The position numbers were made by a program, and so were the translations under genes. The notes under the pieces were generated by a model. It had not been told where the DNA came from. It saw nothing but the letters and a program-made list of their open reading frames with translations, and made no database searches. A DNA stretch of 33,691 nt from a bacterium (GTDB lineage: Bacteria; Actinomycetota; Acidimicrobiia; Acidimicrobiales; CATQHL01): positions 1-33,691 of the forward strand of contig JAPOVS010000044.1 in NCBI GenBank assembly GCA_026708055.1, written 5' to 3'. This document shows positions 684-33,691 of this stretch, one piece after another (the stretch's first letter is position 1; each line of letters opens with the position of its first letter).

Positions 684-2294
684 TCAGGAAGCGGCCTGGC
701 GGGCGGCCTGCAGCCACTCGTCCACCTGTGCCCGGTTGTTCTCGATCCACAGGGCGGCGTGATGGTTCACGTCTGCGGTCGTCTTCTCGCCGGCGTCATA
801 GCGCACGTTCTGCAGCGCCACGTCGACCACGGAGATCTTGACACTCTCGAAGAGCGACCGGGCCGCCGGATTGGCAGCCAGGAAGTCCGAGTTGGCGACG
901 ACCCTGATGTCGGCCGCGGGCCAGCCTGTGAAGCAGGGATCACCGGTGCAGAACTCCGGGCCGAGACTTGCGGGCGGCAGGTCGTTGAAGTCGAAGCCGT
1001 CGGTGGTGGAGCCGTCGAGCACGTTGTCGGCGGTGCCCACCGAGACCCAGATGGCGTTGTCGCCGGGGATCAACTGGGTGAGGTAGCCGCTGGGTGACCA
1101 CGAGTAGGCGATGAACGGCTTGCCGTCCTGGAGGTTGGCCACGGCGTTGGCGAACATGGCCTCGTAGCCCGCATGCACGGCCTCGAGGTTGTCCCAGCCG
1201 TTGAACTCGAAGGTCTGCGCGGCGATCTTGGCGCAGTTCCAGGCGTCGGGGCACGACCCGACCTGGATCACGCCGTCGCCGGGCGTGATGTCCGCGGCGT
1301 CGTAGAGTGCCACGAGTGCGGGATCGTCGTTGATCTGCCCCAGCGTCTGGATGCCGTGCTCCTCCGCGAGCGCCTTGTTGGTCAGGAAGCCCTCGAGCCC
1401 GGCTGCGGCCAGCGACACGCCGACCAACTCGATGTGGTCGCCGATCAGGGAGCCGTCGGAGAGCTCGTCGTCCCAGAAGTTCAGGTGGTTCGGGATCCAG
1501 CCGTTGACCCAGAAGTCCACCTCTCCCTCGGCGAGCGCCACGTGGAAGATGTCGTTGGCCAACTCGTTGTCGGCGGGTTCGCTGACGTCGTAGCCCAACT
1601 CCTCGAGCAACTGGTTGTAGATGGCCGCCTGCATGTAGCCCGTCGACCAGGTGGCACGCGCCTGCGTCACCGAGACGCCCGCACCCGGACTCATGAACGC
1701 CGCGGCCGCGGCCGCTTCGTCCGTTGCGGCCTGCAACTCGGCGGCTTCCTGCTGGGCCGAAGCGGCTTCGGCTTGCGCGGTGGCTGCCTCTTCCTGGGCG
1801 GCGGCGGCTTCGGCCTGGGCGGTGGCTGCCTCTTCCCGGGCGGCGGCGGCTTCGGCCTGGGCGGCGGTTGCCTCGTCCTGGGCGGCGGCTGCCTGTGCGC
1901 TCGCCGCCTCGGCGGCTGCCTGCGCGTCGGCCAGCGCCGCTTCGGCTTCGGCGATGGCGTCCGCGCTGCCCGAAGCCGTGGCTTGGGCCAACCCGGCGGC
2001 GGCCTGCGCCTCGGCGGCTGCAGCGGCTGCCGCGTCCGCCGCGGCCGACGCGGCCTCTGCCGTGGCTGAGGCCGCGGACGCTTCTGCCTCCGCTGCGCCT
2101 GCCCTGGCGTCCGCGGCGTCGGCACCGGCCTGCGCGCCCGACGCGGCGGCCATCGCGGCCGCTGCGTCGGAGGCCGCTGCTGACGCAGCGTCCTGGGCCG
2201 CGGTGTCCTCCGCGGCGCAAGCAGAGGCGATCAGCGCCAGCGCGCCGAGAAGCGCCAACACGCCTGCGACGCGTGTCTTTCTGTGCGTTCTCAT
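684..2294 (-). CDS. proX: Glycine betaine/proline-type ABC transporter substrate-binding lipoprotein
   Basis: Extracytoplasmic binding protein of an OpuA/ProU-type osmolyte importer, 536 residues. The ATG at 2294 is chosen because GGGGAGG lies 9 nt upstream and translation opens directly into a signal peptide with an LIASAC lipobox (Cys26); an in-frame start at 2357 would add 21 residues ahead of it. Residues 27-200 are an almost pure Ala/Glu/Gln stretch, probably a coiled coil or helical stalk, including three 14-residue units (147-188). The binding domain spans about 206-536, with the family's many aromatics (for example a WVNGWIPNHLNFW segment) suited to a cation-binding aromatic cage. Usual family members are about 300-340 residues, so the Ala-rich spacer is the main addition. 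It is the last gene of a three-gene operon, 79 bp after the permease. The substrate (betaine, proline, choline) is inferred from the family. Confidence 0.9.
   Translation of the reverse strand: MRTHRKTRVAGVLALLGALALIASACAAEDTAAQDAASAAASDAAAAMAAASGAQAGADAADARAGAAEAEASAASATAEAASAAADAAAAAAAEAQAAAGLAQATASGSADAIAEAEAALADAQAAAEAASAQAAAAQDEATAAQAEAAAAREEAATAQAEAAAAQEEAATAQAEAASAQQEAAELQAATDEAAAAAAFMSPGAGVSVTQARATWSTGYMQAAIYNQLLEELGYDVSEPADNELANDIFHVALAEGEVDFWVNGWIPNHLNFWDDELSDGSLIGDHIELVGVSLAAAGLEGFLTNKALAEEHGIQTLGQINDDPALVALYDAADITPGDGVIQVGSCPDAWNCAKIAAQTFEFNGWDNLEAVHAGYEAMFANAVANLQDGKPFIAYSWSPSGYLTQLIPGDNAIWVSVGTADNVLDGSTTDGFDFNDLPPASLGPEFCTGDPCFTGWPAADIRVVANSDFLAANPAARSLFESVKISVVDVALQNVRYDAGEKTTADVNHHAALWIENNRAQVDEWLQAARQAAS
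1731..1856 (-). repeat. Three tandem 42-bp units in the Ala-rich spacer
   Basis: Within the binding-protein gene, three consecutive 42-bp units encode AEAAAAREEAATAQ, AEAAAAQEEAATAQ and a diverged third unit. The heptad-like spacing of Ala and charged or Gln residues favours a continuous helix. The unit structure suggests growth by slippage or unequal crossover. Confidence 0.8.
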
Positions 2295-2373
2295 GGGAAT
2301 GAACCTCCCCGGGTGGTCCTTTGGTCGATTGAGCAGGTTAGAGACTCTAACCTGCACCCTGGCAAGACCGTAG

Positions 2374-4512: not shown

Positions 4513-5738
4513 ATGTACACCTCGCGCTCGAACTTCTCCGAGAGGCTCTCCACGCGGCCCATCTCCTCCATGATGAGACGCGGGTCGAGGTTGCCCACGA
4601 GGGCGCCGGAGTCGTCGCAACACGCGATCGGCAGCCCCTTCCCTGCCAGGGCGTACACCTCGTTGAGGCTGCTCTCGTCGGAGCACGTGGCGAAGTCGGT
4701 CCGCAGCGCGGCGGCGACGTCGGATGCGCCCTCATTGGCGGCACGCACCGCGTCGGCGGCCGTCAGCACCGCTGTCGGCATACCGCGCTCGTTGACCACG
4801 AAGGCGCCCGCCCGGTCGCCGAGCGCCGCCAAGGCAGACGCCAGCGTGGTGCCGGCCGTCACCGGCGCGGGCTGGAGCATCACTTCGCGTACCAGGATCA
4901 CGCGACCCTGGTCCACGTCCTGCACGAACTCGGCGACGTAGCCCGTCGCCGGTTCGGTGAGAATCTCGGTGGGCGTGCCCACCTGCACGACGGCGCCGTC
5001 CTTCATGATGCACACCCGGTCGCCGATGCGCAGTGCCTCGTTCAGGTCGTGGGTTATGAAGAGGATCGTCTTGTGGAGTTCGCTCTGGATCTCCAGCATC
5101 TCGTCCTGCATCTGGCGGCGGATGAGGGGGTCCAGAGCGCTGAAGGCCTCGTCCATGAGCAGGATCTCGGGATCCGAGGCCAGGGCGCGGGCCAGGCCGA
5201 CCCGCTGCTGCATGCCGCCGGAGAGTTCTGAGGGCATGTTGTAGGCGTAGGGCCCGAGGCCCACCAGCGACAGCGCCCGCATGGACGCCTGGTTGCGCTC
5301 GTCCCGGCCGACGCCCTGCACCTTGAGCCCGTAACCCACGTTGTCGATGACGTTGCGGTGGGGGAAGAGAGCGAAGTGCTGGAACACCATGCCCATGTGC
5401 GTCCGCCGGAAGGCCTGCAACTCGGAACCCTCCAGGGCCTGCACGTCGGTGCCGGCGACGGTGATCGACCCTGCGGTGATGCCGATCAGCTTGTTGACGG
5501 TGCGCATGGCGGTGGACTTCCCGGAGCCCGAGAGCCCCATCACCACGAACACCTCGCCCTTGTGCACAGTGAAGGTGACGTTGTCGAGGCCCACCACGTG
5601 GCCGGTCTCGGCCTGCACTTCGTCCTTGGACATCCCCGACCGCAGCAGATCGAACGCCCGTCCGCCGGGCTGGGGTCCGAATATCTTGTAGACCCCGTCG
5701 AGGATGATTATTTCGTCGCCGTTCTGGGACATGCTCAT
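4509..5738 (-). CDS. proV: Glycine betaine/proline-type ABC transporter ATPase with CBS domains
   Basis: Cytoplasmic ATPase of the importer, 409 residues from the ATG at 5738. An in-frame GTG at 5777 would add 13 residues; neither has a strong ribosome site, so the start is uncertain. Numbered from 5738: Walker A GLSGSGKST at 68-76, signature LSGGMQQ at 172-178, Walker B ILLMDE at 192-197, and switch His230 in FITHD. The N-terminal helix before the ATPase core (YKIFGPQP... about 17-50) is typical of ProV/OpuAA rather than generic ABC ATPases. The C-terminal 130 residues resemble the paired CBS domains used for ionic-strength sensing in OpuA. It is first in the operon, divergent from ftsE, so the 5739-5937 gap should carry its promoter. 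Confidence 0.93.
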   Translation of the reverse strand: MSMSQNGDEIIILDGVYKIFGPQPGGRAFDLLRSGMSKDEVQAETGHVVGLDNVTFTVHKGEVFVVMGLSGSGKSTAMRTVNKLIGITAGSITVAGTDVQALEGSELQAFRRTHMGMVFQHFALFPHRNVIDNVGYGLKVQGVGRDERNQASMRALSLVGLGPYAYNMPSELSGGMQQRVGLARALASDPEILLMDEAFSALDPLIRRQMQDEMLEIQSELHKTILFITHDLNEALRIGDRVCIMKDGAVVQVGTPTEILTEPATGYVAEFVQDVDQGRVILVREVMLQPAPVTAGTTLASALAALGDRAGAFVVNERGMPTAVLTAADAVRAANEGASDVAAALRTDFATCSDESSLNEVYALAGKGLPIACCDDSGALVGNLDPRLIMEEMGRVESLSEKFEREVYM

Positions 5739-20472: not shown

Positions 20473-22002
20473 TCAATGGCCCGGCGGGCTGGGGAACCCG
20501 CCGACCAGCGACTCGTAGGTCTTGGCCGCCGCCAGCGCGGTCGTCTCGTCCCAGTAGCGGGCCACGAAGCTCATCCCCACCGGGAGCCCGTCGCTGAGGC
20601 CCGCCGGCACGTTGACGACCGGGTGCCCGGTGACCGAGCACGGCAGGGTGTTCGGCACCATCTCCAGCGCCCTCGCCACGTAGTCGGCGATCGAGCAGTC
20701 CTCGGGGGGCAAGGCGGTGGGCATCATCGGAAGCGTCGGGTAGCAGAGCACATCGCAGCTCTCCAGAGCCCTGTCGTACGCCTCGTTGATCAGCGGACGC
20801 AGGTTCTGCGCCTTGGCGTAGCTGGACCCTCCGTGCAGGTTCAGCATGTACTGCCCGAACAGGGCCACGTACTTGACGGAGTGGGAGACCGCGTCGCCGT
20901 GGCGTCGCCAACCCGCCGCGAAAGCCTCCATGATCTCGGGGTTGTACCGGCCGCGGTGGTTCAGGCCGTAGCCGTTGCCGCGCAGCATCTGCCAGGCTCC
21001 TCCCTCGGTTGCGATCACGCTCCAGACCGCCGGTGCCCAGGCGTGCTCGGGAAGGGTTATCTCCCGCACCTCGGCGCCGGCCGTCTCCAGGCGTGCCAGA
21101 GCACCGCGCACCGTATCGTCCACCGCCGCGTCGCTGATCGGGTGGCCGAATCCTTCGGTCACCACGCCGATGCGCAGGCTCGCTGGCTCTCGGTCAAGTC
21201 CCGCGGTGTAGTCCACCCCCGACGGTGCCGACAATTGGCGTTGGTCCGCCCCGTCGGGTCCGGCAATGGCCGTCAGCAGCAGCGCCGCGTCATCGACGGT
21301 GCGAGCGACCGGTCCGAGATGGTCGAACGTGTACTCGATGGGGAAGGCCCCCGTATATGGCACGAGGCCGTAGCTGGCTTTGATCCCGACGATGCCCGAC
21401 CAGCAGCTGGGGATCCGCACCGAGCCCCCCTGGTCGCCGGCGATGGCCATGTCCACGTCGCCGGTTGCCACCAGCACGGCACTGCCGCACGACGAGCCGC
21501 CGGCGGAACGGGTGGGATCCCAGGGGTTGCGCACCGGGCCGGTGGCGGCGGTGTGGCTCCCGCCGGAGAAGCACAGGTCCTCGCAGACCGCCTTGCCGGC
21601 GATCTCGCCGCCCGCCTCCAGGATGCGCCGTACCACGCTGGCGTCGCTGCGGGGCACGAACCCCTCCAGGGTGGCCGAGCCGTTCATCATCGGCACGCCC
21701 GCCACGTCGACGTTGTCCTTGATGGCGATTCGCTTGCCTGCCAGGAGGCCCTCGTCGCGCTCGCGCACGGCGCAGCGCCGGTACCACGCACCGAGGGGGT
21801 TGTCGGCGGGCTCGGGTTGCCAGGAGTGGCGCTCGGGCACCGCCGGCGTCTGCTGCTGGTAGAGGTCCTCCACGGCGTCGTAGGCCGCCAGCGCGCCCAC
21901 CACCAGCTCCCGGTAGGCGGCCAGGTCGTCCTCGCTCGGCGACAATCCGAAGCCGGCGGCGATTGCCCCCAACTCGTCGGTGCTCGGAACCGGTACCCCC
22001 AT
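20473..22002 (-). CDS. Amidase-signature family amidase (nitrile-pathway type)
   Basis: Hydrolyses amides to acid and ammonia, 509 residues, ATG 22002. The Ser-cisSer-Lys triad is visible: Lys95 in IAIKDNV, cis-Ser171 in AGGSSCGSA and nucleophile Ser194 in GGSVRIPS. The N-terminal 80-residue helical domain plus LEGFVPRSDASVV, AVCEDLCFSGGSH and GLVPYTGAFPIE match the Rhodococcus-type enantioselective amidases that follow nitrile hydratase, rather than GatA. No nitrile hydratase genes are in the window, so the substrate is open. The gene stands alone. Its 5' end faces a sulfatase remnant on the other strand, with a REP-like palindrome between them. Confidence 0.93.
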   Translation of the reverse strand: MGVPVPSTDELGAIAAGFGLSPSEDDLAAYRELVVGALAAYDAVEDLYQQQTPAVPERHSWQPEPADNPLGAWYRRCAVRERDEGLLAGKRIAIKDNVDVAGVPMMNGSATLEGFVPRSDASVVRRILEAGGEIAGKAVCEDLCFSGGSHTAATGPVRNPWDPTRSAGGSSCGSAVLVATGDVDMAIAGDQGGSVRIPSCWSGIVGIKASYGLVPYTGAFPIEYTFDHLGPVARTVDDAALLLTAIAGPDGADQRQLSAPSGVDYTAGLDREPASLRIGVVTEGFGHPISDAAVDDTVRGALARLETAGAEVREITLPEHAWAPAVWSVIATEGGAWQMLRGNGYGLNHRGRYNPEIMEAFAAGWRRHGDAVSHSVKYVALFGQYMLNLHGGSSYAKAQNLRPLINEAYDRALESCDVLCYPTLPMMPTALPPEDCSIADYVARALEMVPNTLPCSVTGHPVVNVPAGLSDGLPVGMSFVARYWDETTALAAAKTYESLVGGFPSPPGH

Positions 22003-22130
22003 GGTGCCTCCTCGGCGAGACGTCGCTGCCCGTAACCTACGATGCCCCGCCGCGCGGGTGTTACCCGCGTTTGCAGGTGCTTGGCCCGGGGGCCCGGCGC
22101 GGCGAGGTTTCTATGAATCGGGCCGGCCAC

Positions 22131-22163
22131 CCCGTCATTCCGGCAGAGGCGGGAATCCGGGCC
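22131..22163. repeat. REP-like palindrome
   Basis: CCCGTCATTCCGGCAGAGGCGGGAATCCGGG has the ATTCC...GGGAAT arms seen in the widespread intergenic REP-type sequences of many bacteria (GTCATTCCCGC...GCGGGAATCC). Only one clear copy is in this window, so a family here is inferred from resemblance. Confidence 0.5.
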
Positions 22164-22220
22164 CGCACCCTCCGGCACGGCGACCGTCCGGCCGGCCCGG
22201 CCCGGTGTACTTTCGCGGCG

Positions 22221-22670
22221 ATGGGGCGACCCAACGTCCTCTTGGTGATGGCGGATCAGTTGGCGCCGCACTTCACCGGCACCTACGGCCACCCTTCGTG
22301 GCTGGGACGGCTGGTCGGGGCGCTGGGAGAGGTGGGCGAACTGGACCGCACCGTGGTCATCGCCACCAGCGACCACGGCGACATGCTCGGCGACCGGGGC
22401 ACCTGGTTCAAGATGTGCTTCTACGAGAGATCGGCACGGGTGCCGCTCGTGGTGGCCGGTCCTGACGTGGTCCACCGCACCGTCGGCAACGCCTGCTCGC
22501 TGCTGGACCTGTTCCCGACGCTGTTGGACATCGCCGGCGACGGGACCGAGCCGGCGGCACCGCTGGTGGGGCGCAGCCTCTGGCCCAGCGCCACCGGCGG
22601 GGAGGATCCCGTCGACGAGACCATCGGCGAGTACACCGCCGAGATGACGTCGCACCCCATCCACTCGACG
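22221..22670 (+). pseudogene. Choline-sulfatase-like gene with internal deletion and lost C-terminus
   Basis: ATG 22221 opens the normal sulfatase N-terminus (RPNVLLVMADQLAPHFTGTYGHP). The next residues are SWLGRLVGAL, which belong roughly 250 residues further on, just before the conserved TSDHGDMLGDRG and MCFYERSARVPLVVAGP segments. The CxPxR sequence that yields the formylglycine nucleophile and most metal ligands fall in the gap, so the product cannot be an active sulfatase. The frame is kept through the deletion. After GEYTAEMTSHPI the similarity stops and the frame runs into unrelated sequence before the convergent acyl-CoA synthetase gene. The DQLAP and KMCFYERSARVPL patterns point to the choline-sulfatase (BetC) branch, a betaine-precursor enzyme. 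Confidence 0.82.
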
Positions 22671-22704
22671 GCTCGACTGAGCCGGCGGCGCGGCTCCGAG
22701 ACGG

Positions 22705-24321
22705 TCAGCGGTTGCGCAGTTCGACGCGGCGGATCTTGCCCGAGACGGTCTTGGGCAACTCGGCGGTGAACTCGATACGGCGGGGGTACTTGTAGGGCGC
22801 GGTGGTGGCCTTGACGTGCTCCTGCAACTCGCCGGCCAGATCCTCGCCGGGCTCGAAGCCCGCCGCGAGCACGACGAACGCCTTGACGATCTGGCCCCGG
22901 ATCTCGTCGGGGACGCCGACCACCGCAGCTTCGGCGACGGCGGGATGCTCCAGCAGCGCCGACTCCACCTCGAAGGGGCCGATGCGGTAGGCGGAGGAGA
23001 GGATCACGTCGTCGGCCCGCCCCACGAACCAGAAGTAGCCGTCGGCGTCGCGGATCCCGCGATCACCGGTCACGTACCAGTCCCCTCGGTGCGCCTCGGC
23101 ATTGCGGTCCGGGTCCCGCCAGTACTCCTTGAACAGTCCGACCGGCCGGGTGGGTTCGACGCGCACGGCGATGTCGCCCTCGCTCCCGTCGGGCACCTCC
23201 GCCCCGGTCTCATCGATGACCGCCACGTCGAAGCCGGGCAGTGCGAGGCCCATCGAACCGGCCCGCACCGGTATGCCGGGAAGGTTCGCCACGACGGCCA
23301 CCGTCTCGGTCTGGCCGTAGCCGTCGTGTATCACCGTCCCGGTGGCCTCCTGCCACACCTTGATGACTTCGGGATTGAGTGGCTCGCCCGCAGACGTGCA
23401 GTGCCGCAGGCTCGAGAAGTCGTAGGCCGTCAGGTCCATCTGGGCGAAGGCCCGGTACAGGGTCGGCGGCACGCAGAACGTGCTGACCCCCTGCTCACCG
23501 ATGATGCGCAGCATCCGGTCGAGGTCGGGCTTGCCGACGACGTTCCACATCACGACCGCCGCGCCGATGCGCCACTGCCCGAACAACTTGCCCCAGGCCG
23601 CCTTGCCCCAGCCGGTGTCCGAGACGGTCCAGTGCACGTCCTCGGCGCGCAGGTCCTGCCAAAGACCAGCGGTGACGTCGTGGCCGATGCCGTAGGAGGC
23701 GTGCGTGTGCAGCACCATCTTGGGCAGCGACTCGGTGCCCGATGTGAAGTAGATGAGCATCGGATCGTCGGCTGCGGTGTCATGGACCGGGAGCGTGGCG
23801 ACGGCACCGGCGACGGCGGCGTCGAGGTCGACCCAGCCCGGCGAGGACTCGCCGACGAGCAGGCGCCGGGACGCTCCCGGACAGTCCGCAAGGGCCGCGT
23901 CGACGGCGATCAGCCCGGCGGTGTCGGTCACCACCGTGGTGGCCTCGGCCAGGTTGACCCGGTAGGCCACGTCCCGGGCGCTGAGCTGCATCGTTGCGGG
24001 CATCGGGACGGCGCCCAGATGCAGGCACCCCAGCAACACGTCGTACCACTGCACGATGCGCGGCAGCATCAGGAACACCCGATCCCCGGCGCCCACGCCC
24101 CGTTCGGCGAGCACCGCGGCGGTCGCCGTCACCCGCTCGGCGATCGTGGCGAAGTCGTAGCGCTCGGCAGTCAGCCCGTCCGGCTCCACGGCCACCAGGG
24201 CCAGACTCCGCGGGCGGGTCCGAGCCTGCGTGTGCAGCACGTCTGCCACGTAGTTGAAGCGGTCGGGCACGTCGAGGCGAAAGCTCCGCCGCAACTCCTC
24301 GTACTCGGCGCGTGTGGGCAT
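22705..24321 (-). CDS. Acyl-CoA synthetase, medium-chain (ACSM/acetyl-CoA synthetase-like)
   Basis: Adenylate-forming ligase, 538 residues from ATG 24321, which has AGGA 8 nt upstream; ATG 24330 is an alternative. ATP-binding motif YFTSGTESLPKMVLHTH, then DGYGQTET, GDWYVTGDRG, the hinge FVGRADDVILSSAYRIGPFE and the C-terminal catalytic Lys in PKTVSGKIRR are all present, so it appears intact and active. YFTSGTxxxPKMV and SAYRIGPFEVE are typical of medium-chain/ACSM-type enzymes, which act on short to medium straight or aromatic acids. It is the only intact gene between two deletion-scarred remnants. Confidence 0.92.
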   Translation of the reverse strand: MPTRAEYEELRRSFRLDVPDRFNYVADVLHTQARTRPRSLALVAVEPDGLTAERYDFATIAERVTATAAVLAERGVGAGDRVFLMLPRIVQWYDVLLGCLHLGAVPMPATMQLSARDVAYRVNLAEATTVVTDTAGLIAVDAALADCPGASRRLLVGESSPGWVDLDAAVAGAVATLPVHDTAADDPMLIYFTSGTESLPKMVLHTHASYGIGHDVTAGLWQDLRAEDVHWTVSDTGWGKAAWGKLFGQWRIGAAVVMWNVVGKPDLDRMLRIIGEQGVSTFCVPPTLYRAFAQMDLTAYDFSSLRHCTSAGEPLNPEVIKVWQEATGTVIHDGYGQTETVAVVANLPGIPVRAGSMGLALPGFDVAVIDETGAEVPDGSEGDIAVRVEPTRPVGLFKEYWRDPDRNAEAHRGDWYVTGDRGIRDADGYFWFVGRADDVILSSAYRIGPFEVESALLEHPAVAEAAVVGVPDEIRGQIVKAFVVLAAGFEPGEDLAGELQEHVKATTAPYKYPRRIEFTAELPKTVSGKIRRVELRNR

Positions 24322-24403
24322 GGGTTCCATCCTGTGGCCGGATCGCCGGGTCGGCAACAGTATGTGCCGCCGGTATCTGGCGTGGCGCTCCGGTGCGGCG
24401 GAC

Positions 24404-24724
24404 TCAGACGGGGAGGCCGAGTTCCCGGCTCATCACCAGGCGCTGGATCTCGCTGGTCCCCTCGCCGATCTCGAGGATCTTGGCGTCGCGGTAGTAGCGG
24501 CTCACCGAGGTCTCGTCGATGACCTCGGCGGTGCGTTCGGGGTCGTTCCAGTAGCCCTGCATCACCGAGTAGCCGCGGGTCAGCGTGGCGCCCTTCGGGA
24601 AGCCGGTCGTGCCGCTGGTGCACTGGATGTTGATGGGATCCTCGGCGCGCAGGCCGGCGGCTCGGCGGCGCATCTCTGCGGCGCTCACGCCGGCGGCCCG
24701 ATCCAGCAACTCGGCCCAGTCGCC
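24404..24724 (-). pseudogene. Mosaic remnant: acyl-CoA ligase core fused to acyl-CoA dehydrogenase C-terminus
   Basis: One open frame joins three pieces. 24578-24724 encodes a fatty-acid-CoA ligase middle section ending in the ATP motif (INIQCTSGTTGFPKGATLT). 24509-24577 continues with RGYSVMQGYWNDPERTAEVID, which in intact ligases lies about 200 residues further on. 24404-24508 then encodes SRYYRDAKILEIGEGTSEIQ and the terminal residues LVMSRELGLPV, the textbook C-terminus of acyl-CoA dehydrogenases. Upstream of 24724 the frame is open but unlike any ligase N-terminus. So at least one internal deletion and one gene-to-gene fusion occurred, all in frame. The product would lack every complete domain. 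Confidence 0.85.
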
Positions 24725-24839
24725 GATCCCCGTACGCGCGTTCGACCAGCCCGAGGTAGTACGCCGACACCCCCATTTGCAGGTTTCTGGGCTATCCGGT
24801 GGGGATACGGCCGAGGTGGGGGGTGCAGCCGTAGGCTGA

Positions 24840-25043
24840 CCTCTGGATCGGATCACCTCGGCCTTGGCGGATCTCGATGCTGCTGAGCGGCCGAGCGATC
24901 TTGACCTGCCCGGGTACAGGTTGCATCCGCTCAAGGGTGACCGACACGGATTGTGGAGCATCCACATTTCGAGCAATTGGCGGATCACCTTTCGGCTCGA
25001 CGGCGGTGACGCGTACGAAGTAGACCTTGTGGATTATCATTAG
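24840..25043 (+). pseudogene. higB: 5'-truncated HigB-type (RelE superfamily) toxin
   Basis: After an in-frame TGA at 24837, 67 codons read LDRITSALADLDAAERPSDL, then DLPGYRLHPLKGDRHGLWSI and HISSNWRITFRLDGGDAYEV, ending DLVDYH. This is the C-terminal two thirds of a HigB toxin of about 92 residues, including the LHPLKGD and NWRITF segments of the ribosome-dependent mRNA interferase fold. The first 25-30 residues and the start codon are missing; only a CTG or similar could start it. HigA follows 16 bp downstream, the standard toxin-first order. It is probably inactive because the N-terminal helix is lost. Confidence 0.85.
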
Positions 25044-25059
25044 TGTCGAGGAGCCGACC

Positions 25060-25380
25060 ATGACCATGAAGAATCCGCCCCATCCCGGCAGGAGCATCAG
25101 AGACAACTGCCTTAGAGACAACTGCCTTGTCCCTCTGGGTTTGACCGTCACGGAGGCGGCGAACGTCCTGGGGGTTGCCCGCCACACTCTCTCACGGGTG
25201 TTGAACGGACACGCCGCGATCTCGCCGGACATGGCAATCCGCCTGGAGAAGGCTGGATGGTCCAGCGCGGAGTTTTGGCTGCGACGCCAGACCACCTACG
25301 ACCTTGCGCAGGCCCGCAGACTCGAGGAACGGATACGCGTCGAGCCCTACCAGCCCATGGGCGCTGCGCAGGCAATCTGA
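25060..25380 (+). CDS. higA: HigA-family antitoxin (XRE-type DNA-binding)
   Basis: 106 residues from ATG 25060, with GAGGAG 7 nt upstream. The HPGR start, [35 protein letters not shown] helix-turn-helix (residues about 25-58, landmark only) and [19 protein letters not shown] are classic HigA. It normally binds HigB and represses the operon. A perfect 15-bp tandem duplication at 25099-25128 doubles RDNCL ahead of the helix-turn-helix, adding five residues absent from normal HigA. With a truncated toxin, this antitoxin is either orphaned or protects against a HigB elsewhere. Confidence 0.9.
25099..25128. repeat. 15-bp exact tandem duplication inside higA
   Basis: AGAGACAACTGCCTT occurs twice head to tail (25099-25113, 25114-25128). 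It is in frame and recent, since the copies are identical. Confidence 0.92.
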
Positions 25381-25731
25381 CGACGGTCTCCCGCGTCGAG
25401 GCGGACGAGGGCAAAGAATGGTGTGTGGAACTCACTATGGCGCGACAGCGGCGGCTGACAGGCGCAGCAGTGCGGTAGATCTGAGCGCCAGATTAGCCAC
25501 ACTCTGGCTTAGCTATTGGCCTTTTTGCATGGCGTATCTGAGGCGTCATCTGGACCCGCAGGATCTCCGCGAGGAGGTGATCCGCCGCCTCGCCCTCGCC
25601 GCCGGCAAGGACCGCCACTTCTCCCACCGCCACCACGGAATCCCCCCGGTCTGACGGGCAGCCTCTGTCGCAGGGAGCTGCCGGCCGGGGCCGCTTTGTC
25701 GATTTGTGTTGGCGCCTTGTAGAGTCGGGTC
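25381..25731. other. Intergenic region before the VapBC-like pair
   Basis: A possible 41-codon frame (25529-25654, starting MAYLRRHLDPQDL) has no clear ribosome site and covers the repeat copy at 25576-25645. A weak stem (GCCAGA/TCTGGC near 25490-25511) precedes a short T-run at 25522 and could terminate higA. Nothing else is supported. Confidence 0.4.
25576..25645. repeat. Imperfect repeat flanking the VapBC-like pair, copy 1
   Basis: GGTGATCCGCCGCC..CTCGCCGCCGGCAAGGACCGC..CTTC..C..ATCCC matches copy 2 at 26438-26498 over about 60 bp with several substitutions and one gap of about 9-12 bp. Both copies read the same way relative to the toxin-antitoxin pair between them. Confidence 0.6.
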
Positions 25732-25974
25732 ATGGCCGTGCACCGGTTCCGGGTGTCCGAACGGGGCCAGATGGCGCTGCCCGCGGAGGCTCGCCGACGC
25801 TGGAACCTCACCGCTGGTGGCACCGTGGAGATAGCCGATCTGGGCCCTGCTCTGGTCGTCGTCCCCGCTGGTGGGGACGGTTTGCGCAACCTGCTCAGGG
25901 CCTCCATAGACGAAGCGGGCGGCTATCCGTCTCTGGCCGCCCGGGTCGCAGTCGAAGAGCCCGAACTCCGGTGA
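25732..25974 (+). CDS. AbrB/MazE-type antitoxin (VapB-like)
   Basis: 80 residues, ATG 25732. The N-terminal half has the swapped-hairpin AbrB pattern (FRVSERGQMALPAEARRRW, then LTAGGTVEIADLG), which binds DNA. The C-terminal half (LRNLLRASIDEAGGYPSLAA) would wrap the toxin. The stop overlaps the GTG of the PIN-domain gene by 4 bp (GTGA), the usual antitoxin-toxin coupling. It likely represses its own operon. Confidence 0.85.
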   Translation: MAVHRFRVSERGQMALPAEARRRWNLTAGGTVEIADLGPALVVVPAGGDGLRNLLRASIDEAGGYPSLAARVAVEEPELR

Positions 25975-26414
25975 CCGGAACCGTCCTGATCGACGACCAC
26001 AACCTGCTGAGAGTGCTCCTGGGCGACGAGCCGGACGGGCTTCGCGCCGCGGGGAGCGGCATCGCCACCACCGGGCTGTGGTACCACCGGCTGTGCCGGG
26101 CGGTGGCCGACCGGACCGTCGCAGGCGCGATGTCGCGCCGCCTCGGCGGCTTGGACAAAGGGGTCGCTGCCGAGGTCACATCCTTGATAGTCGCACTTCC
26201 CTCTGACATCGAATTGTTGTCACTTCGGGCGCTCGGTTGGCCTATGGGGGAACTGGCATCCAGCGGAGTCCGCCTGAATCTGCTCTCGCTGGAGGCGCTG
26301 GCCGCCGCCCGGCATCTCGACGCCGAGATCTGCCTCGCCGCGGCGAACAACAACGGCCCGCTCATCGCCGCGGCCCGCACCGTGGGAGTCCCCCTCCGTC
26401 GCCTGCCGAACTGA
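25971..26414 (+). CDS. PIN-domain toxin-like protein (VapC-like)
   Basis: 147 residues from GTG 25971. It opens with the PIN-type LIDDHNLLRVLLGDEP (Asp8/Asp9), has a TTGLWYHRLCRAVADRTV segment and the second acidic region at HLDAEICLAAA (Asp117/Glu119). PIN nucleases usually have a further Asp just after this strand; here the position reads NNN (126-128). The acidic site may therefore be incomplete and the RNase activity weakened. Cognate antitoxin is directly upstream. It belongs to an actinobacterial VapC-like branch rather than the classic short VapC. Confidence 0.78.
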   Translation: MTGTVLIDDHNLLRVLLGDEPDGLRAAGSGIATTGLWYHRLCRAVADRTVAGAMSRRLGGLDKGVAAEVTSLIVALPSDIELLSLRALGWPMGELASSGVRLNLLSLEALAAARHLDAEICLAAANNNGPLIAAARTVGVPLRRLPN

Positions 26415-26437: not shown

Positions 26438-26498
26438 GGTGATCCGCCGCCGGGACCTCGCCGCCGGCAGGGACCGCTGCTTCCACTACGCAATCCCG
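26438..26498. repeat. Imperfect repeat flanking the VapBC-like pair, copy 2
   Basis: Starts GGTGATCCGCCGCC, with CTCGCCGCCGGCAGGGACCGC in the middle, 24 bp after the toxin stop. See copy 1 at 25576. The remaining DNA to 26709 holds a 10-G run (26589-26598) and no supported gene. Confidence 0.6.
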
Positions 26499-26709: not shown

Positions 26710-27009
26710 ATGGTTGGTGCAGGCATAGCGCTGTTTGTCTTGTGCTTCGGCGCGCTCGTCGACATCCATCGCCGCTCGTTCGCCTCGTGGGTGCACGCCG
26801 ACCGAAGGCGGAAGCATTGGCTCACGTGGAGTTACGGTCTCGCCTTCATCAATGTACTTCTGCTCTCAATGTCAGGGATTCTGCCGGCGCTGGGTGTCTT
26901 CGTGATCCTTTCCTGCATCATCTACCTGTGCTGCTATGCGGGCCTGCTGATTCCGTCGATGCGGAACGGGCAGAGCACCACCAGCGACTTTCGCCATCCA
27001 GACCATTAG
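26710..27009 (+). CDS. Small membrane protein of unknown function
   Basis: 99 residues from ATG 26710, with AAGGAG 9 nt upstream; an ATG at 26689 would add 7 residues. Three hydrophobic stretches: near the N-terminus (IALFVLCFGALVDI), LAFINVLLLSMSGILPALGV and FVILSCIIYLCCYAGLLI, with a basic loop (HADRRRKHW) between the first and second. The tail is polar. It is not recognised. The next gene starts 8 bp downstream, so they are probably co-transcribed. Confidence 0.65.
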   Translation: MVGAGIALFVLCFGALVDIHRRSFASWVHADRRRKHWLTWSYGLAFINVLLLSMSGILPALGVFVILSCIIYLCCYAGLLIPSMRNGQSTTSDFRHPDH

Positions 27010-27017
27010 GAGAAGCG

Positions 27018-27812
27018 GTGAAATCGTCCAAGGCCGATCAGGGCCAGTTGATCACGATACAGAAGTATCAGACATACAGCGGCTACGAGTCCCGGAATAT
27101 CGCCAGCGGAGACGATGAAGAAAGATCAGTTCTTGTCCGACCAAAACCGGATCGGGCCACACGGTCTATCCGTCTGGAACCCCAGGACGGTAAATCAGTC
27201 ATGCGCGGAGCCGCGAAGGGCTTGCAATGGCCGAGCGGGAATATCGCTGACGTCAAGATCGAGTTGGTTCTCACCGATCAACGGATTGCCTTCGCGATTC
27301 CGCGGTGCCCGAAGCCGTCAGCGCTTCAGCCAATGCTCACCCTCAAGTACATGCCCTTTGAGCCGTTCGAGTGGCTGTTCCGGTATGCGGCAGAGTCACG
27401 TCGGTACAACACCCAGATCGGGCTGGGACAACTCCATTACGACTGGATTACAGCTGTTGGATCGGCACACCAGATGCGTGGGCGGCGGCGACGCCCCGGC
27501 CGTCAGAAGAACGGAGACATCCTCCGCATCGGCTTCGATCCGGTCGTCGACGCAGGTGGAGAGATCCACGAGTCAGGTTCGGGGAGCGCCGATGTGCATG
27601 TGGAGTTGGCACCGGACCTGAGTGGCGAGATGCTGGCGTTGGAGCTGACCGCACGGGTCTGCCGCCACAGGCTTGCTGCCCTTGAGAGCAGCGACACCGA
27701 CAACGGCGTGGCCGAGACGATTGCCTCCACACTGAAAGAAGTGGAAGAGCGCATCGCCAGTTTCACAATGGGGGTCTCAAACCCGAACCTCTCCTATGAG
27801 ATTACGCGCTGA
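27018..27812 (+). CDS. Protein of unknown function, possible PH/GRAM-like module
   Basis: 264 residues from GTG 27018, with AGGAGA overlapping the spacer to the preceding gene. No signal peptide or membrane segment, so it is cytoplasmic. The VKIELVLTDQRIAFAI stretch (about residue 76-91) resembles the strand pair of bacterial PH/GRAM-like domains, but this is a weak hint. A basic patch (MRGRRRRPGRQKNGD) and a C-terminal helical region (VAETIASTLKEVEERIASF) are visible. Function is not known. Its base composition is lower in GC than the first 20 kb. Confidence 0.6.
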   Translation: MKSSKADQGQLITIQKYQTYSGYESRNIASGDDEERSVLVRPKPDRATRSIRLEPQDGKSVMRGAAKGLQWPSGNIADVKIELVLTDQRIAFAIPRCPKPSALQPMLTLKYMPFEPFEWLFRYAAESRRYNTQIGLGQLHYDWITAVGSAHQMRGRRRRPGRQKNGDILRIGFDPVVDAGGEIHESGSGSADVHVELAPDLSGEMLALELTARVCRHRLAALESSDTDNGVAETIASTLKEVEERIASFTMGVSNPNLSYEITR

Positions 27813-27887
27813 CTCTTCGCTCCGTGCTGGGGAGTTCAGGACGTCGTTCGCAGGATTCTCAGCTGTCTCAACTGTCAAGGGGAGACC

Positions 27888-28157
27888 ATGACATTCTATC
27901 AGGAATCGAGAAGGCCGGATCGCACTGCCAAAAGTGGTCCTATGTCCGGGTTTGTGCGCGGCGTGGTGCCGCAGTTAGGCACCACGTTCTTTGTGGCAGG
28001 ATTCACGCTGCTTCTATTGGCAGCGTTCGACACCCGTCTATTGCCAGGGTTCGACACCTACTACGTGGGCAGTCGGTTGTATGCGGGTCTGGTGTGCCTG
28101 GGCTTGGGTATTGCACTGCTCTACTACTATGCAAAAATCGCTGGCAGTCCCGAGTGA
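27888..28157 (+). CDS. Small membrane protein, MTFYQE type
   Basis: 89 residues, ATG 27888 with AAGGGGAGA upstream. Two hydrophobic helices (TTFFVAGFTLLLLAAF and LYAGLVCLGLGIALLYYY) separated by a short loop. The N-terminus MTFYQE is nearly the same as that of the next gene (MSFYQE), and both are two-helix proteins, so they look like diverged paralogues. Function unknown. Confidence 0.68.
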   Translation: MTFYQESRRPDRTAKSGPMSGFVRGVVPQLGTTFFVAGFTLLLLAAFDTRLLPGFDTYYVGSRLYAGLVCLGLGIALLYYYAKIAGSPE

Positions 28158-28220
28158 TTGTAGGCGAAGCCCGGTATCTGGCGCAGAGGGTATACAAACT
28201 CAATTTGAGAAGGGCTGGCA

Positions 28221-28508
28221 ATGAGTTTCTATCAGGAACTGGGCGAGGGAGAGCATTCGAAGTCTGATGAAGTGTTGAATTCATCCCGAGGATATCTAGC
28301 GCTGATAGTCGTGCCATTCCTGGCGGGATTCGCGTGCATATTCCTGACATTCCGGCTTCGCTTCTGTCACGTTGGCTTCCGTGACGGCGGAGTGGACAGT
28401 TGGTGTGATCCGATTAATACGCCTCTCCTTGTTGCAGGAATCGTCCTGATGGTGGTCCCCGTGGTGGTGCACATGTTCAGGGTGGCACTCACTAAGTCGA
28501 ACGAGTAG
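28221..28508 (+). CDS. Small membrane protein, MSFYQE type
   Basis: 95 residues, ATG 28221 with GAGAAGGG upstream. Two hydrophobic helices (ALIVVPFLAGFACIFLTF and LLVAGIVLMVVPVVVHMF), with a loop holding two Cys (FCHVGF, SWCDP) that could form a disulfide outside the membrane. It shares the N-terminal signature with the preceding gene. Followed 87 bp later by the large secreted protein. Function unknown. Confidence 0.68.
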   Translation: MSFYQELGEGEHSKSDEVLNSSRGYLALIVVPFLAGFACIFLTFRLRFCHVGFRDGGVDSWCDPINTPLLVAGIVLMVVPVVVHMFRVALTKSNE

Positions 28509-28595
28509 CAGCAGCTCGTTGGTATCGTGTCAGGCCATGAGTCGGAAGAACTGGCCGATGTTATTGGAGTGGACACAGGAAGAGCGGAGTGCGTC

Positions 28596-31500
28596 GTGAA
28601 AAATGGTCGTAAACTGTTCCGCAGGATTCCGAGGTTCGGTCGCTTAAACCTCGGCTGCGCGATCATCGTTATGGTCATTTGCACTGCCTTGGTGCCTGCG
28701 GCGGCGTCTTCGCCGGTGGTGGCGCAGGAGCAGACGTCGTGGTACGTGAACGACGACCCCAGCCTGTTCGGGCCGTCTGAGTATTGGTATTGGGGTGATC
28801 CCGGTCATGGTTACGGTTCGAACTATTACCGCTACACGTATGCCATAGGCGGTGCCAGGTCTGCGGACAATTGGGCGCGGTGGTCCATGGGGCCCCGGGT
28901 GGGCCTCCAGGAGATCCAGGTGTATGTGCCGAGCAATCACGCCACGGCGACGGTGTATTACAACATCACGATCGGGTCGCGGACGTTCAGGCGGTCCGTG
29001 GCGCAGGCCAGTATCTCGGGTTGGCACTCGCTGGGCAACTGGGACGCCGGTGGCGCCGACGTGGTCGTCGCGGTCTACGACAACGACGCCGGGCATCACA
29101 AGGACCGCCACGGCTTTGCGGCCAGCCGGATCGGTGTGGACGCTATCAGGATGCGCTGCGTGGCCCGCTGCTCCGCCAACCCGTCGCCTCCGTCGCCTCC
29201 GCCGCCGCAGCGGGACGTGACCATTGAGCTCGGCGCGGATCGGAGCGGGTGCGGTTACTCGCATCTTCCGTGCCGGTGGGTGGACGCCACCTTCGAGGGG
29301 TTCGCGTCGGGACGTTACCTGCTGGAGTGCTATTGGAGCACGTCGCGGGGCTCGTTGGGGAGTCGCACCGCGTCGCGGACGATCACCGTCTCGGGGCGTT
29401 CGGTCGACGAGCTGTGCTGGTTCAACGTGCAGCCGGGCCGCTACCTGACCCTGGTGGTGGACGGCGTCCGATCCAACACCATCCAGTTCTCCGGAACAAC
29501 CTCCCCGCCCCCGCCGCCCCCGCCGCCATCGTCGCTCGTTGTTGAGGTGCCGTCGGCTCCGAGTTTCTTGGCGGCTTCCGTCGGTGAGCGTAGGGCGGGT
29601 GTTTTGTGGTCACCGCCTGCTGACGACGGTGGCGCGCCGGTGACGCGGTATCGGGTGGAGTTGTATGAGGGCGGAACCCGCGTCGATCGCTTCTATGTCG
29701 CCTCCGGCGCAGTGGAGGTGTCGTTCGGCGGTCTCACGCCGGGCACGGCGTACACGGCCTACGTGCGGGCCGAGAACAGAGCCGGTTGGGGCGCTCGGGA
29801 CAGCACGACTTTCACGACGCTGGCGGATTCATCCCCGCCGCCCACCACCACGACGACAACGCAGCCGCCGGAGGCCCAGGCCACTCGCGCAATCCGCATC
29901 TCCCTGGGCGCGGATCGGAGCGGATGCGGGTATGAGCATCTTCCGTGCCGCTGGGTGGACGCCACCTTTGACAGGTTCGCGTCGGGACGTTACCTGCTGG
30001 AGTGCTACTGGAGCACGTCGCGGGGCTCGCTGGGGAATCGCACCGCGTCGCGGACGATCACCGTCTCGTCGCGCTCGGTCGACAATCTGTGCTGGTTCAA
30101 CGTGCAGCCGGGCCGCCATCTGACGATGGTTGTAGACGGCGTCCAATCCAACACCATCCAATTCGCAGGCACCCTTGGCCAGACCTCAGCCAGCCAAAAT
30201 AACGACCAGAACAACAATGACCTACCGCCGAGTATGGCAGATGTGGACGCCGGGTTAGCCACCGCCCTGCCAGCGCCGTCAGAGGCCACCGCGCCCTCCT
30301 CTCCCCGCAATCTGGAGATCGCGGTCATTGACTCCAATCGGGATGCCGACACGCTGAAGGATGACCTCATCGTGACGTGGGATTCTCCAGATAACAATGG
30401 AGGTGCAAGGGTCGCAGGCTATCGGATGACGATATCGCGCCCACCTATCTCGAACGGACCTGATGTACGACCCCATCCTTGGTCCACAAGTGGGCGACCG
30501 TCGTCACCGTATGAGTTTGCGGGACTCTCGTGTGCTGCCTATACGATTACCCTCGCAGCGGAGAATCGAGCCGGACGCGGGTCAATCTCACGGGCAACCG
30601 TGAGCACGGAATGCCCACCTCGCCCCGGATATCTGAATGATGATCCAGTGATCCGCGGTGGGGAGGCTTCTGGCTTGGGTCAGGGTACGATGGCCGGTTG
30701 GGTCATATACAAGCTAGGCGTGTTTACTGCGAACACCTATTTTCCTGATGAAGACAATCCCAACAATCCGAAGCCTGGCGACCACATCGGCACAAACGGT
30801 TTTCATGTAGTTCATATAGGCGATCGAAATCATTACGCCTACTGGACGTTCCGAGATGTTGATCCCGGCCGTTACGATGTTCAGGTGTTCGTTCCGGCTC
30901 ATCGCGATTGCACTGCCACTGCAGGAACCGCGCTTGGTGAGGTCGTCGAGTTCGTCGGAGGGATATTTGGTAGCGACTACGAGGCTGTCTGCAATTACCG
31001 TTTTCGTCCAGGGGTCAATGCCGAGTACAGGGTTTACGAGGATGTACTGGTGGATGCCGATGGGGACACCACGTTCCGAGGTCTGCAGTTCCATACTACG
31101 GTGGATCAGTCGCTAAAGTCAAGCGATACCGGGAGATGGGTAACACTCGGGTCGCTTGACGTAGCCTCTGCGATGAACCCGACGGTTCGTGTAGCGACAT
31201 TTGACTTAGATCATGTCGGGGATAGAGATTATCCTCATTCGACAACTTCCACAGGGGATGAGCGTTGGGAGCACCATCTAGCTGTAGACGCTGCCCGCTT
31301 GATCCCCGTTGACGCAGTCGTTGATTGGAGCAGCGACCAAAGGTATGTCGATGCTGTTGCGTGGTGCCAGAGTGATGTGATCTATCAGCTCGTTATCGAT
31401 CCGATCGTCGATCTGATTTTGGAGCACACGCTTGGAACGATCAAGGATACGATGATCGAGAGTGCAATAACCGGAGCTCTGGTTGGTGCCGCTGCGGGGC

Positions 31501-31889
31501 TTACGGCTGCCAGCGGTGGAATCGGAACACCGCTACTTGTAGGTACGGTAGGTGTGAAGATCGCCAGCGGAGCCAAATTTGTGGTCAAGGTAGTGACCAA
31601 GGTACAGAAGATTTGGGATCTATTCCGTCGCCTCGATGAGATCTTGGACAAGATTCGCCGAGTTCGCGATACAGCTGAAGTGTTTGCCGAAGTATTGGAT
31701 AACTTTGTATTGGACAACTTTAAATTAAGCGCAACAGGCGAAGACGGTCTCGATCATGAATTTGACCTAGGATCAATGTGCGAACAAGATGCGGTATGGG
31801 AGAACTACTATGGCGACAATAACTTCGGCGGTGAGGTGCAAAAATTCGTGCGAGAGAGATTCGAAGAGGCTGCTCGGCTCGTCGGTTGA
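28596..31889 (+). CDS. Large secreted multidomain protein: golvesin-like, fibronectin III and duplicated Cys-rich modules
   Basis: 1097 residues from GTG 28596 (GGAG 6 nt upstream); a longer frame opens at GTG 28527 but would bury the signal peptide (IIVMVICTALVPAAA, cleavage near residue 46). In order: golvesin-like domain (about 49-190), Cys-rich module A (212-298), Pro-rich linker, fibronectin III domain (about 317-408), Thr/Pro linker, module A' (437-523), second fibronectin III (565-673), second golvesin-like domain (677-905), and a C-terminal part with a Gly/Ala-rich hydrophobic hairpin (about 958-992) and a charged helix (KIWDLFRRLDEILDKIRR). Modules A and A' are near identical. Golvesin and fibronectin domains bind carbohydrate or protein surfaces, so an envelope role is inferred. 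The hydrophobic C-terminus could insert in a membrane, as in pre-toxin regions, but no toxin domain was recognised. Confidence 0.8.
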   Translation: MKNGRKLFRRIPRFGRLNLGCAIIVMVICTALVPAAASSPVVAQEQTSWYVNDDPSLFGPSEYWYWGDPGHGYGSNYYRYTYAIGGARSADNWARWSMGPRVGLQEIQVYVPSNHATATVYYNITIGSRTFRRSVAQASISGWHSLGNWDAGGADVVVAVYDNDAGHHKDRHGFAASRIGVDAIRMRCVARCSANPSPPSPPPPQRDVTIELGADRSGCGYSHLPCRWVDATFEGFASGRYLLECYWSTSRGSLGSRTASRTITVSGRSVDELCWFNVQPGRYLTLVVDGVRSNTIQFSGTTSPPPPPPPPSSLVVEVPSAPSFLAASVGERRAGVLWSPPADDGGAPVTRYRVELYEGGTRVDRFYVASGAVEVSFGGLTPGTAYTAYVRAENRAGWGARDSTTFTTLADSSPPPTTTTTTQPPEAQATRAIRISLGADRSGCGYEHLPCRWVDATFDRFASGRYLLECYWSTSRGSLGNRTASRTITVSSRSVDNLCWFNVQPGRHLTMVVDGVQSNTIQFAGTLGQTSASQNNDQNNNDLPPSMADVDAGLATALPAPSEATAPSSPRNLEIAVIDSNRDADTLKDDLIVTWDSPDNNGGARVAGYRMTISRPPISNGPDVRPHPWSTSGRPSSPYEFAGLSCAAYTITLAAENRAGRGSISRATVSTECPPRPGYLNDDPVIRGGEASGLGQGTMAGWVIYKLGVFTANTYFPDEDNPNNPKPGDHIGTNGFHVVHIGDRNHYAYWTFRDVDPGRYDVQVFVPAHRDCTATAGTALGEVVEFVGGIFGSDYEAVCNYRFRPGVNAEYRVYEDVLVDADGDTTFRGLQFHTTVDQSLKSSDTGRWVTLGSLDVASAMNPTVRVATFDLDHVGDRDYPHSTTSTGDERWEHHLAVDAARLIPVDAVVDWSSDQRYVDAVAWCQSDVIYQLVIDPIVDLILEHTLGTIKDTMIESAITGALVGAAAGLTAASGGIGTPLLVGTVGVKIASGAKFVVKVVTKVQKIWDLFRRLDEILDKIRRVRDTAEVFAEVLDNFVLDNFKLSATGEDGLDHEFDLGSMCEQDAVWENYYGDNNFGGEVQKFVRERFEEAARLVG
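29229..29490 (+). repeat. 262-bp internal duplication, copy A
   Basis: Matches 29904-30165 with no gaps (constant offset of 675 bp) and few substitutions. It encodes a module with four Cys (SGCGY, LPCRW, LECYW, ELCWF) and the phrase GRYLLECYWSTSRGSLG. Duplication of a whole module with conserved reading phase. Confidence 0.92.
29904..30165 (+). repeat. 262-bp internal duplication, copy A'
   Basis: Second copy of the module at 29229-29490. Differences include Tyr-Ser to Tyr-Glu and Asp-Glu-Leu to Asp-Asn-Leu. All four Cys are kept, so two disulfides per module are likely. Confidence 0.92.
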
Positions 31890-31984
31890 GCGAGTATTGC
31901 CGGTTCCTGACCCCCGGCGGCGAGCATGAGGGACCGCCAAGAGTCTAACGCATTCGCTGGTAACCGCTGGACACGGGAGGAATA

Positions 31985-33691
31985 GTGCGCGACACAGTAG
32001 GAGTTCGAAGCCGCTGGCTGCCGGTCATGACGCTGGCGTTGCTGGCGGCGGCGTGCGCCGGCGGTCCAAGCGAGCCCGGTCCAACCACGACGGCAGCGCC
32101 TCCGCCGAACACCATCGGCGATAGGGCATCGCCTGCCGCGGAGGAATCCATCCCCGAGCAGGCGAACAGCGAAGCCGCGTCGACTGAAAGGCGACAACCG
32201 GCGGAACCATCGCCCGCGGACACTGCGAGCGACGACGGGCCGGCCGCAGCACCGGTGCCCGTTCCCGGGCCGCCTCCGCCGCCCCCGGGCGCTGAGGACA
32301 CCACCGCGGCTCTGGTGTCCGACACTGCCGACGGAGAAACGGCTAGCACCAGGCAAGGCGCCGCCGGGAGATACACCGCCGTTTCTGCCGGCGGGGATCA
32401 TTCCTGCGCGGTGCGAATCGACGGTTCGGTCACCTGCTGGGGCTCCAACGACGACGGCCAGGCGGTCGCGCCGGCCGGGAGTTTCACCGCGGTGTCCGCC
32501 GGCGGCAGGCATTCGTGCGCCCTGCGGTCTGACGGTTCGGTCACCTGCTGGGGCTCCAACGACGACGGCCAGGCGGTCGCGCCGGCCGGGAGTTTCACCG
32601 CGGTGTCCGCCGGCGGGGATCATTCGTGCGCCCTGCGAGATGGCGGTTCGGTCACCTGCTGGGGCTCCAACTACCACGGCCAGGCCGACGACTCGCCAGC
32701 CGGGACCTTCAGCGCCGTGTCTGCCGGCGACGGGCATTCGTGCGCCCTGCGAATCGACGGTTCCGTCACCTGCTGGGGCGACAACTCCCAATACTGCGAG
32801 TCGGAGATCTGCTACGACGGCCCCGCCGACTCGCCCGCGGGTAGCTTCAGCGCCGTGTCTGCCGGCGACGGGCATTCGTGCGCGGTGCGAATCGACGGTG
32901 CCGTCACCTGCTGGGGCCGCAACGACGACGGTCAGGCCGAAGCGCCCGCGGCGAGCTACAGTGCCGTGTCTGCCGGCGACCGGCATTCGTGCGCCCTGCG
33001 CACTGACGGAGCCGTCATCTGCTGGGGCCTCAGCCACTACGGGCGGGCTGACTCGCGGGTTGACGCGCCCTCGGGGAGTTTCACCGCGGTGTCCGCCGGC
33101 TGGGATCATTCGTGCGCGCTGCGGTCTGACGGTTCGGTCACCTGCTGGGGCGACAACGACTACGGCCAGGCGGTCGCGCCGGCGGGGAGTTTCACCGCGG
33201 TGTCCGCCGGCGGCGGGCATTCGTGCGCGCTGCGGTCTGACGGTTCGGTCACCTGCTGGGGCGACAACGACGACGGCCAGGCGGTCGCGCCGGCGGGGAG
33301 TTTCACCGCGGTGTCCGCCGGCGACCAGGATTCCTGCGCCCTGCGCACTGACGGAGCCGCCACCTGCTGGGGCGACAGCCACTACTGGCACGTGGACGTG
33401 CCGGCGGAGAGTTTCATCGCGGTGTCCGCCGGCGGGGGGCATTCGTGCGCGCTGCGGTCTGACGGTTCGGTCACCTGCTGGGGCGACAACTACTACGGGC
33501 AGGCGGTCGCGCCCTCGGGGAGTTTCATCGCGGTGTCCGCCGGCTGGGGTCATTCGTGCGCGCTGGGGTCTGACGGTTCGGTCACCTGCTGGGGCTACGA
33601 CGACGGGCGGGCGGTCGCGTCGGCGGGGAGTTTCACCGCGGTGTCCGCCGGCGGGGGTCATTCGTGCGCGCTGGGGTCTGACGGTTCGGTC
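31985..33691 (+). CDS. RCC1-repeat lipoprotein, 3' end outside window
   Basis: Open from GTG 31985 (GGGAGG just upstream) to the window edge, 569 codons. Signal peptide with lipobox-like LLAAAC (Cys24), then a 105-residue Pro/Ala/Ser/Thr/Glu linker, then RCC1-like units of about 37 residues from 32372. Each unit has the form (F/Y)TAVSAG..HSCALR.DGSVTCWG.N..GQA, with two Cys. Twelve units are visible, the last cut by the edge. RCC1-like units form beta-propellers; seven blades make one, so more than one propeller is predicted. Anchored outside the cell by its lipid, it is probably an adhesion or binding surface. The same unit type occurs in the broken gene at 14377-14972. Confidence 0.85.
   Translation, partial: MRDTVGVRSRWLPVMTLALLAAACAGGPSEPGPTTTAAPPPNTIGDRASPAAEESIPEQANSEAASTERRQPAEPSPADTASDDGPAAAPVPVPGPPPPPPGAEDTTAALVSDTADGETASTRQGAAGRYTAVSAGGDHSCAVRIDGSVTCWGSNDDGQAVAPAGSFTAVSAGGRHSCALRSDGSVTCWGSNDDGQAVAPAGSFTAVSAGGDHSCALRDGGSVTCWGSNYHGQADDSPAGTFSAVSAGDGHSCALRIDGSVTCWGDNSQYCESEICYDGPADSPAGSFSAVSAGDGHSCAVRIDGAVTCWGRNDDGQAEAPAASYSAVSAGDRHSCALRTDGAVICWGLSHYGRADSRVDAPSGSFTAVSAGWDHSCALRSDGSVTCWGDNDYGQAVAPAGSFTAVSAGGGHSCALRSDGSVTCWGDNDDGQAVAPAGSFTAVSAGDQDSCALRTDGAATCWGDSHYWHVDVPAESFIAVSAGGGHSCALRSDGSVTCWGDNYYGQAVAPSGSFIAVSAGWGHSCALGSDGSVTCWGYDDGRAVASAGSFTAVSAGGGHSCALGSDGSV
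32372..33691 (+). repeat. Array of twelve RCC1-like repeats
   Basis: Tandem units of mostly 108-111 bp with near-identical blocks such as TTCACCGCGGTGTCCGCCGG and GACGGTTCGGTCACCTGCTG. A few units are longer through insertions between blades (CESEIC at about 32796). The high identity between neighbouring units points to recent duplication or gene conversion. The array reaches the end of the window. Confidence 0.9.

Follow-up and report, generated by a model that had tools for sequence, protein, structure and literature searches.

Four orphan genes ahead of a predicted surface-protein cassette in a putative gene-exchange hot spot of an Acidimicrobiales genome

The window analyzed here, a stretch of 33,691 nucleotides that makes up contig C44 of the Acidimicrobiales genome G000, carries four consecutive small genes, denoted P1 to P4, that are genuine, lineage-restricted genes and probably front an accessory surface-protein cassette within a genus-level gene-exchange hot spot located between the genes for an acyl-CoA carboxylase and PPK2. 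Surface-protein, toxin-antitoxin and orphan membrane genes appear to be exchanged at this site, where 3' ends of the carboxylase gene are left as footprints. The four orphan families could represent genes that arose or were acquired in the recent past, and the empty site of a relative offers a defined point of comparison.

The first of these genes, P1 (26689-27009), encodes a protein of 106 aa with three predicted transmembrane helices, as indicated by the hydrophobic segments found by hydropathy analysis at residues 6, 49 and 68; an alternative ATG start at 26710, preceded by AAGGAG, would yield a protein of 99 aa. P2 (27018-27812), which starts with GTG immediately downstream of an AGGAG motif, encodes a predicted soluble protein of 264 aa. 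P3 (27888-28157; 89 aa, starting with MTFYQE) and P4 (28221-28508; 95 aa, starting with MSFYQE) each encode a predicted two-helix hairpin. Judging by these topologies, P1, P3 and P4 are expected to reside in the cytoplasmic membrane and P2 in the cytoplasm. P1-P4 are real genes. All four reading frames are intact, lie on the plus strand and contain no frameshifts, each start is preceded by a purine-rich, RBS-like stretch, and the codon-position G+C content in every gene follows the order GC3 > GC1 > GC2, which is the pattern expected for real genes because the genome is GC-rich. The alternative that these small ORFs are spurious or are decaying remnants, similar to the fragments located directly upstream, could draw on the gene-fragment mosaic at 24404-25654 and on the lack of homologues in any search made, but is hardly probable given the intact, frameshift-free frames, the RBS-like sequence at each start, the codon-position composition and the coherent transmembrane topology. 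Downstream of P4, on the same strand, lie the gene for a large secreted protein (P5) and a gene for an RCC1-repeat lipoprotein. Thus, the claim of an earlier note that four genes for small two- and three-helix membrane proteins and one soluble protein are arranged in order ahead of a secreted protein and an RCC1 lipoprotein holds with respect to the ORFs, the predicted topologies and the co-directional, tightly packed layout.

The description of these genes in the same note as unrecognized was also borne out. No match of P1-P4 to Pfam or NCBIfam passed the curated cut-offs, nothing significant was found in PHROGs or PADLOC, and a comparison of P2 with PDB sequences yielded nothing above the cut-off. 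P1 has no homologue in 118 genomes (its own and 117 others), and no convincing homologues were detected for P2 in searches of 99 and 396 genomes of relatives or in a phylum-wide sample, for P3 in 198 genomes or for P4 in 99 genomes (the source genome included in each of these counts), bearing in mind that single-sequence searches can miss strongly diverged homologues of short membrane proteins. P2 also found no match in GTDB contigs, IMG/VR, plasmids or phages, and P3 and P4 found none in IMG/VR. Because there is no family match above the cut-offs and no homologue in 99-396 relatives, P1-P4 appear to be lineage-restricted orphan genes. A phage or plasmid origin was rejected, with P2 unmatched among phages and plasmids and P2-P5 unmatched in IMG/VR. 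The closest Pfam relative of P1 is below the membership threshold: P1 aligns over 70 residues, including a similar terminal helix, with DUF2516 (PF10724), a family of small membrane proteins of unknown function, but its score of 17.9 bits falls short of the 30.6 required, so that by Pfam's rule it is not a member; Claudin_2 likewise gave only a weak match under the cut-off. The stretch LVLTDQRIAF ... LHYDWI in P2 is reminiscent of bacterial PH-like domains. This likeness has no profile support, with no Pfam match even at an E value of 10, and the AlphaFold2 model of P2 (pLDDT 38) is too poor for a fold search. Four weak matches of P2 in relatives (E values of 0.001-0.01) were inspected and considered to be due to chance, being short, interrupted by stop codons or not reproduced as a single alignment; the weak matches of P3 and P4 in the same range of E values were attributed to chance solely on the basis of score, extent and stop codons.

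The genomic context of these genes can be traced through the AMP-ligase gene at 22705-24357, orthologues of which are present in five genomes of the genus. To the right of this gene, relatives encode an acyl-CoA carboxylase followed by PPK2 (the names of the carboxylase, PPK2 and the sulfatase mentioned below come from reading the sequences, not from a family search). The interval between the carboxylase and PPK2 genes differs from genome to genome: it is empty in G001, where it spans 63 bp, contains two RCC1 genes in G002 and a single RCC1 gene on the opposite strand in G004, in both cases without P1-P5, and holds a MazE/PIN pair, P1-P5 and an RCC1 gene in G000. The left edge of the site in the window is marked by a remnant of the carboxylase gene (25556-25654, plus strand) that corresponds to its last 99 bp and matches the 3' end of the carboxylase gene of G001, G002 and G004 with 90-95% identity. 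This remnant is followed by a MazE/AbrB-type antitoxin gene (25732-25974, plus strand; PF04014 and TIGR01439, both above the cut-off) and a candidate PIN-like toxin gene (25983-26414, plus strand) that has no library match and was paired with the antitoxin by its position and the look of its sequence only. Between this pair and P1, the carboxylase 3' end occurs once more, as a partial copy (26438-26483, plus strand; 87% identity over 46 nt), and an extra carboxylase 3' end is found also in G002, between its two RCC1 genes (L102, 15652-15713). Such extra 3' ends among the inserted genes of G000 and G002 look like marks left by repeated events of insertion or duplication at the end of the carboxylase gene. 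Because of the variable content of the carboxylase-PPK2 interval and the extra carboxylase 3' ends, the site is one of recurrent insertion or duplication, with P1-P5 as its cargo in G000.

The cargo also differs from its surroundings in composition, with a G+C content of 53-59% in P1-P4 and 53-60% in P1-P5 compared to ~69% in the flanks and 72% in the RCC1 gene. On the right, the site extends onto contig C74, where the end of the RCC1 gene is followed by a remnant of the start of PPK2, a sulfatase gene, an intact carboxylase gene and an intact PPK2 gene. In its variable content between two conserved genes, remnants at the edges, lower G+C, absence of homologues and nearby toxin-antitoxin genes, this locus is similar to integration hot spots and genomic islands with orphan cargo. 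It differs in that no integrase, transposase or tRNA was recognized at the site (recombinases being sought among the listed ORFs) and in that the repeated element is the 3' end of the acyl-CoA carboxylase gene. The most likely account is that P1-P4 are young, lineage-specific accessory cargo, such that lower-GC accessory surface genes would be lodged in a gene-exchange hot spot. Under this account, P1-P4 would be, at most, optional local helpers of this single cassette, e.g., membrane partners of P5.

Several other traces of rearrangement are present in this region. The stretch at 24404-25654 is a mosaic pieced together from fragments of the genes for an acyl-CoA dehydrogenase, the AMP ligase and the carboxylase, all of which are complete in relatives, and approximately 8 kb of the ancestral region has been deleted or eroded. 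This eroded stretch encodes a HigA-family antitoxin (25027-25380; TIGR02607) without an obvious toxin; a HigA-like sequence, recognized by eye and without a library match, also follows a P5-type gene in G007 (L044, 3899-4225). Truncated sulfatase-like pieces are located at 21963-22769 of the window, and a longer frame is found on C74 (L084, reverse complement of 1819-3669), a sign of duplication followed by decay.

P5 (28527-31889, plus strand) is a modular protein predicted to be secreted via the Sec pathway, and its translation probably starts at 28596 (VKNGRKLFRR..., a signal peptide) rather than at 28527. It consists of two golvesin-like domains, two Fn3 domains, two cysteine-containing repeats and a helical C-terminus. 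The pattern of the golvesin C-terminal domain (PF25275) is visible in the N-terminal domain of P5, which scores 18.8 bits where 31.6 are required, a likeness that concerns P5 and not P1-P4; the second golvesin-like domain was recognized by eye through the WYVNDDP/YLNDDP pattern. The gene further contains an internal direct repeat of 269 nt (29229-29497 and 29904-30172, 89% identical) that corresponds to the cysteine-containing module flanking an Fn3 domain. P5-type proteins are encoded also on two other contigs of G000 (C23 and C19) and in G007 (C93), G006 (C119) and G005 (C114); they are alike in the N-terminal and middle modules (~50-71% identity), and the match stops near residue 697. In G005, the golvesin-like domain forms part of one protein with an Amidase_3 peptidoglycan amidase (L046, 1-1905), in support of a wall or surface role of P5. 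Both P5 and the RCC1 lipoprotein are likely to be displayed on the surface. The next large gene at the same locus of G005 (2700-5483) combines RCC1 repeats with a C-terminal, metalloprotease-like HELAHV motif that was noticed by eye.

The distribution of similarity among the P5-type proteins, which share the N-terminal and middle modules up to about residue 697, together with the prediction that residues 954-1120 of P5 are helical and include a long hydrophobic stretch (a low-confidence model, pLDDT 54) and the presence of small membrane proteins next to P5, would be compatible with a toxin-immunity-like pair, in which the helical, hydrophobic P5 C-terminus would act on membranes, with the P3 and P4 hairpins protecting the producer. 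We consider such an arrangement very unlikely. Paralogues with similarly built helical C-termini, on C23 and in G007, are not adjacent to hairpin genes, immunity genes are usually located 3' of the toxin gene whereas P3 and P4 precede P5, no toxin family was matched above the cut-off, and the fold model of the P5 C-terminus, made with AlphaFold2, is of too low quality for a fold search.

The RCC1-repeat lipoprotein gene (31985-33691, plus strand) is cut by the end of the contig and continues in frame on C74, for a total of 829 aa; the join was deduced from a 29-nt exact overlap of the contig ends, which lies within a repeat, and from the reading frame being kept through the RCC1 repeats. The part within the window contains a lipobox and 12 RCC1_2 (PF13540) repeats that score far above the cut-off. 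This gene is one of many paralogues in the genome and is not specific to the P1-P4 locus. The RCC1 repeats are greatly expanded in G000, being encoded on contigs C18, C26, C35, C36, C38, C43 (two close together), C44, C74 and C76, that is, on eight contigs besides that of the window, among which C74 carries the remainder of the RCC1 gene that is truncated in the window. No paper joining RCC1 and Acidimicrobiia was found in the collection of papers searched.

The genes from P1 to RCC1 are separated by gaps of 8, 75, 63, 18 (or 87 with the P5 start at 28596) and 95 bp, no RNA families were found in an RNA family search, and a scan of this region identified terminator-like sites no more numerous than in shuffled sequence; the whole set probably is co-transcribed as one operon. 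This organization was the basis for the proposal that the genes form an accessory envelope system, and the membrane and envelope topologies, the tight co-directional layout and the lack of terminator-like sites above background do agree with it; a dedicated system is not supported, given the P5-type and RCC1 genes that are found elsewhere without P1-P4. An accessory system that co-evolved to serve the envelope or export, in which P1, P3 and P4 would assemble into a membrane complex and act with P2 in exporting, anchoring or regulating P5 and the RCC1 lipoprotein, would account for the gene order, the short gaps and common strand, the complementary topologies of the products and the absence of internal terminators above background. 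A loose parallel in layout exists in G005, where a gene for a four-helix protein (starting with MTAIQE) is located between the amidase/golvesin-like gene and the RCC1 gene, but this protein is not homologous to P1-P4. Moreover, no homologues of P1-P4 were found in the neighborhoods of the five other P5-type loci or of the RCC1 loci on the eight other contigs of G000. Because P5 has an ordinary Sec signal and the RCC1 protein a lipobox, the two need no special exporter. Altogether, a dedicated system of this kind is unlikely. Conservation of the gene order from 26710 to 33691, as envisaged in the earlier note, was not found: P1-P4 are absent from all relatives searched, with P5-type and RCC1 genes occurring without them, as judged at the family level from eight other genomes that are all draft assemblies, several of them incomplete. 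The account of P1-P4 as young cargo of the hot spot is preferred, although their tight, co-directional packing with the secreted genes could instead reflect real but young functional coupling.

The M(S/T)FYQE start common to P3 and P4 is a distinct feature of this locus. Twelve bases, TTCTATCAGGAA, are identical at the start of the two genes, and a repeat search showed that the 29-nt segments containing the RBS and the first six codons (27877-27905 for P3 and 28210-28238 for P4, both on the plus strand) are 79% identical. The pattern RTG-NNN-FYQE occurs at two sites only, these two, 333 bp apart, in the entire 3.9-Mb genome. Across the order, 297 further genomes contain only two sites that match a slightly narrower pattern, with A fixed after the start codon, compared to three for the reversed control pattern. 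Residues 3-6 are identical in three of the 15,225 gene pairs of this genome, and the expectation is ~4e-5 per random pair, so a common start by chance is unlikely. Once the initial six residues are set aside, the two proteins show no significant similarity, the score of their alignment being reached by 400 of 2000 shuffles, or 610 of 2000 when the segments are preserved. Their topology is the same, with helices starting near residues 26 and 60 in P3 and 22 and 61 in P4, and the loops and tails are alike. It could be imagined that the M(S/T)FYQE motif is a cytoplasmic docking tag on two dissimilar hairpins that is read by P2, and that P1-P4 are a new, recently assembled membrane module controlling the surface display of P5 and RCC1; we would give such a scheme very little credence. 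The simplest reading is that the common start comes from a duplication, probably either of the RBS and the first six codons or, very long ago, of the whole gene.
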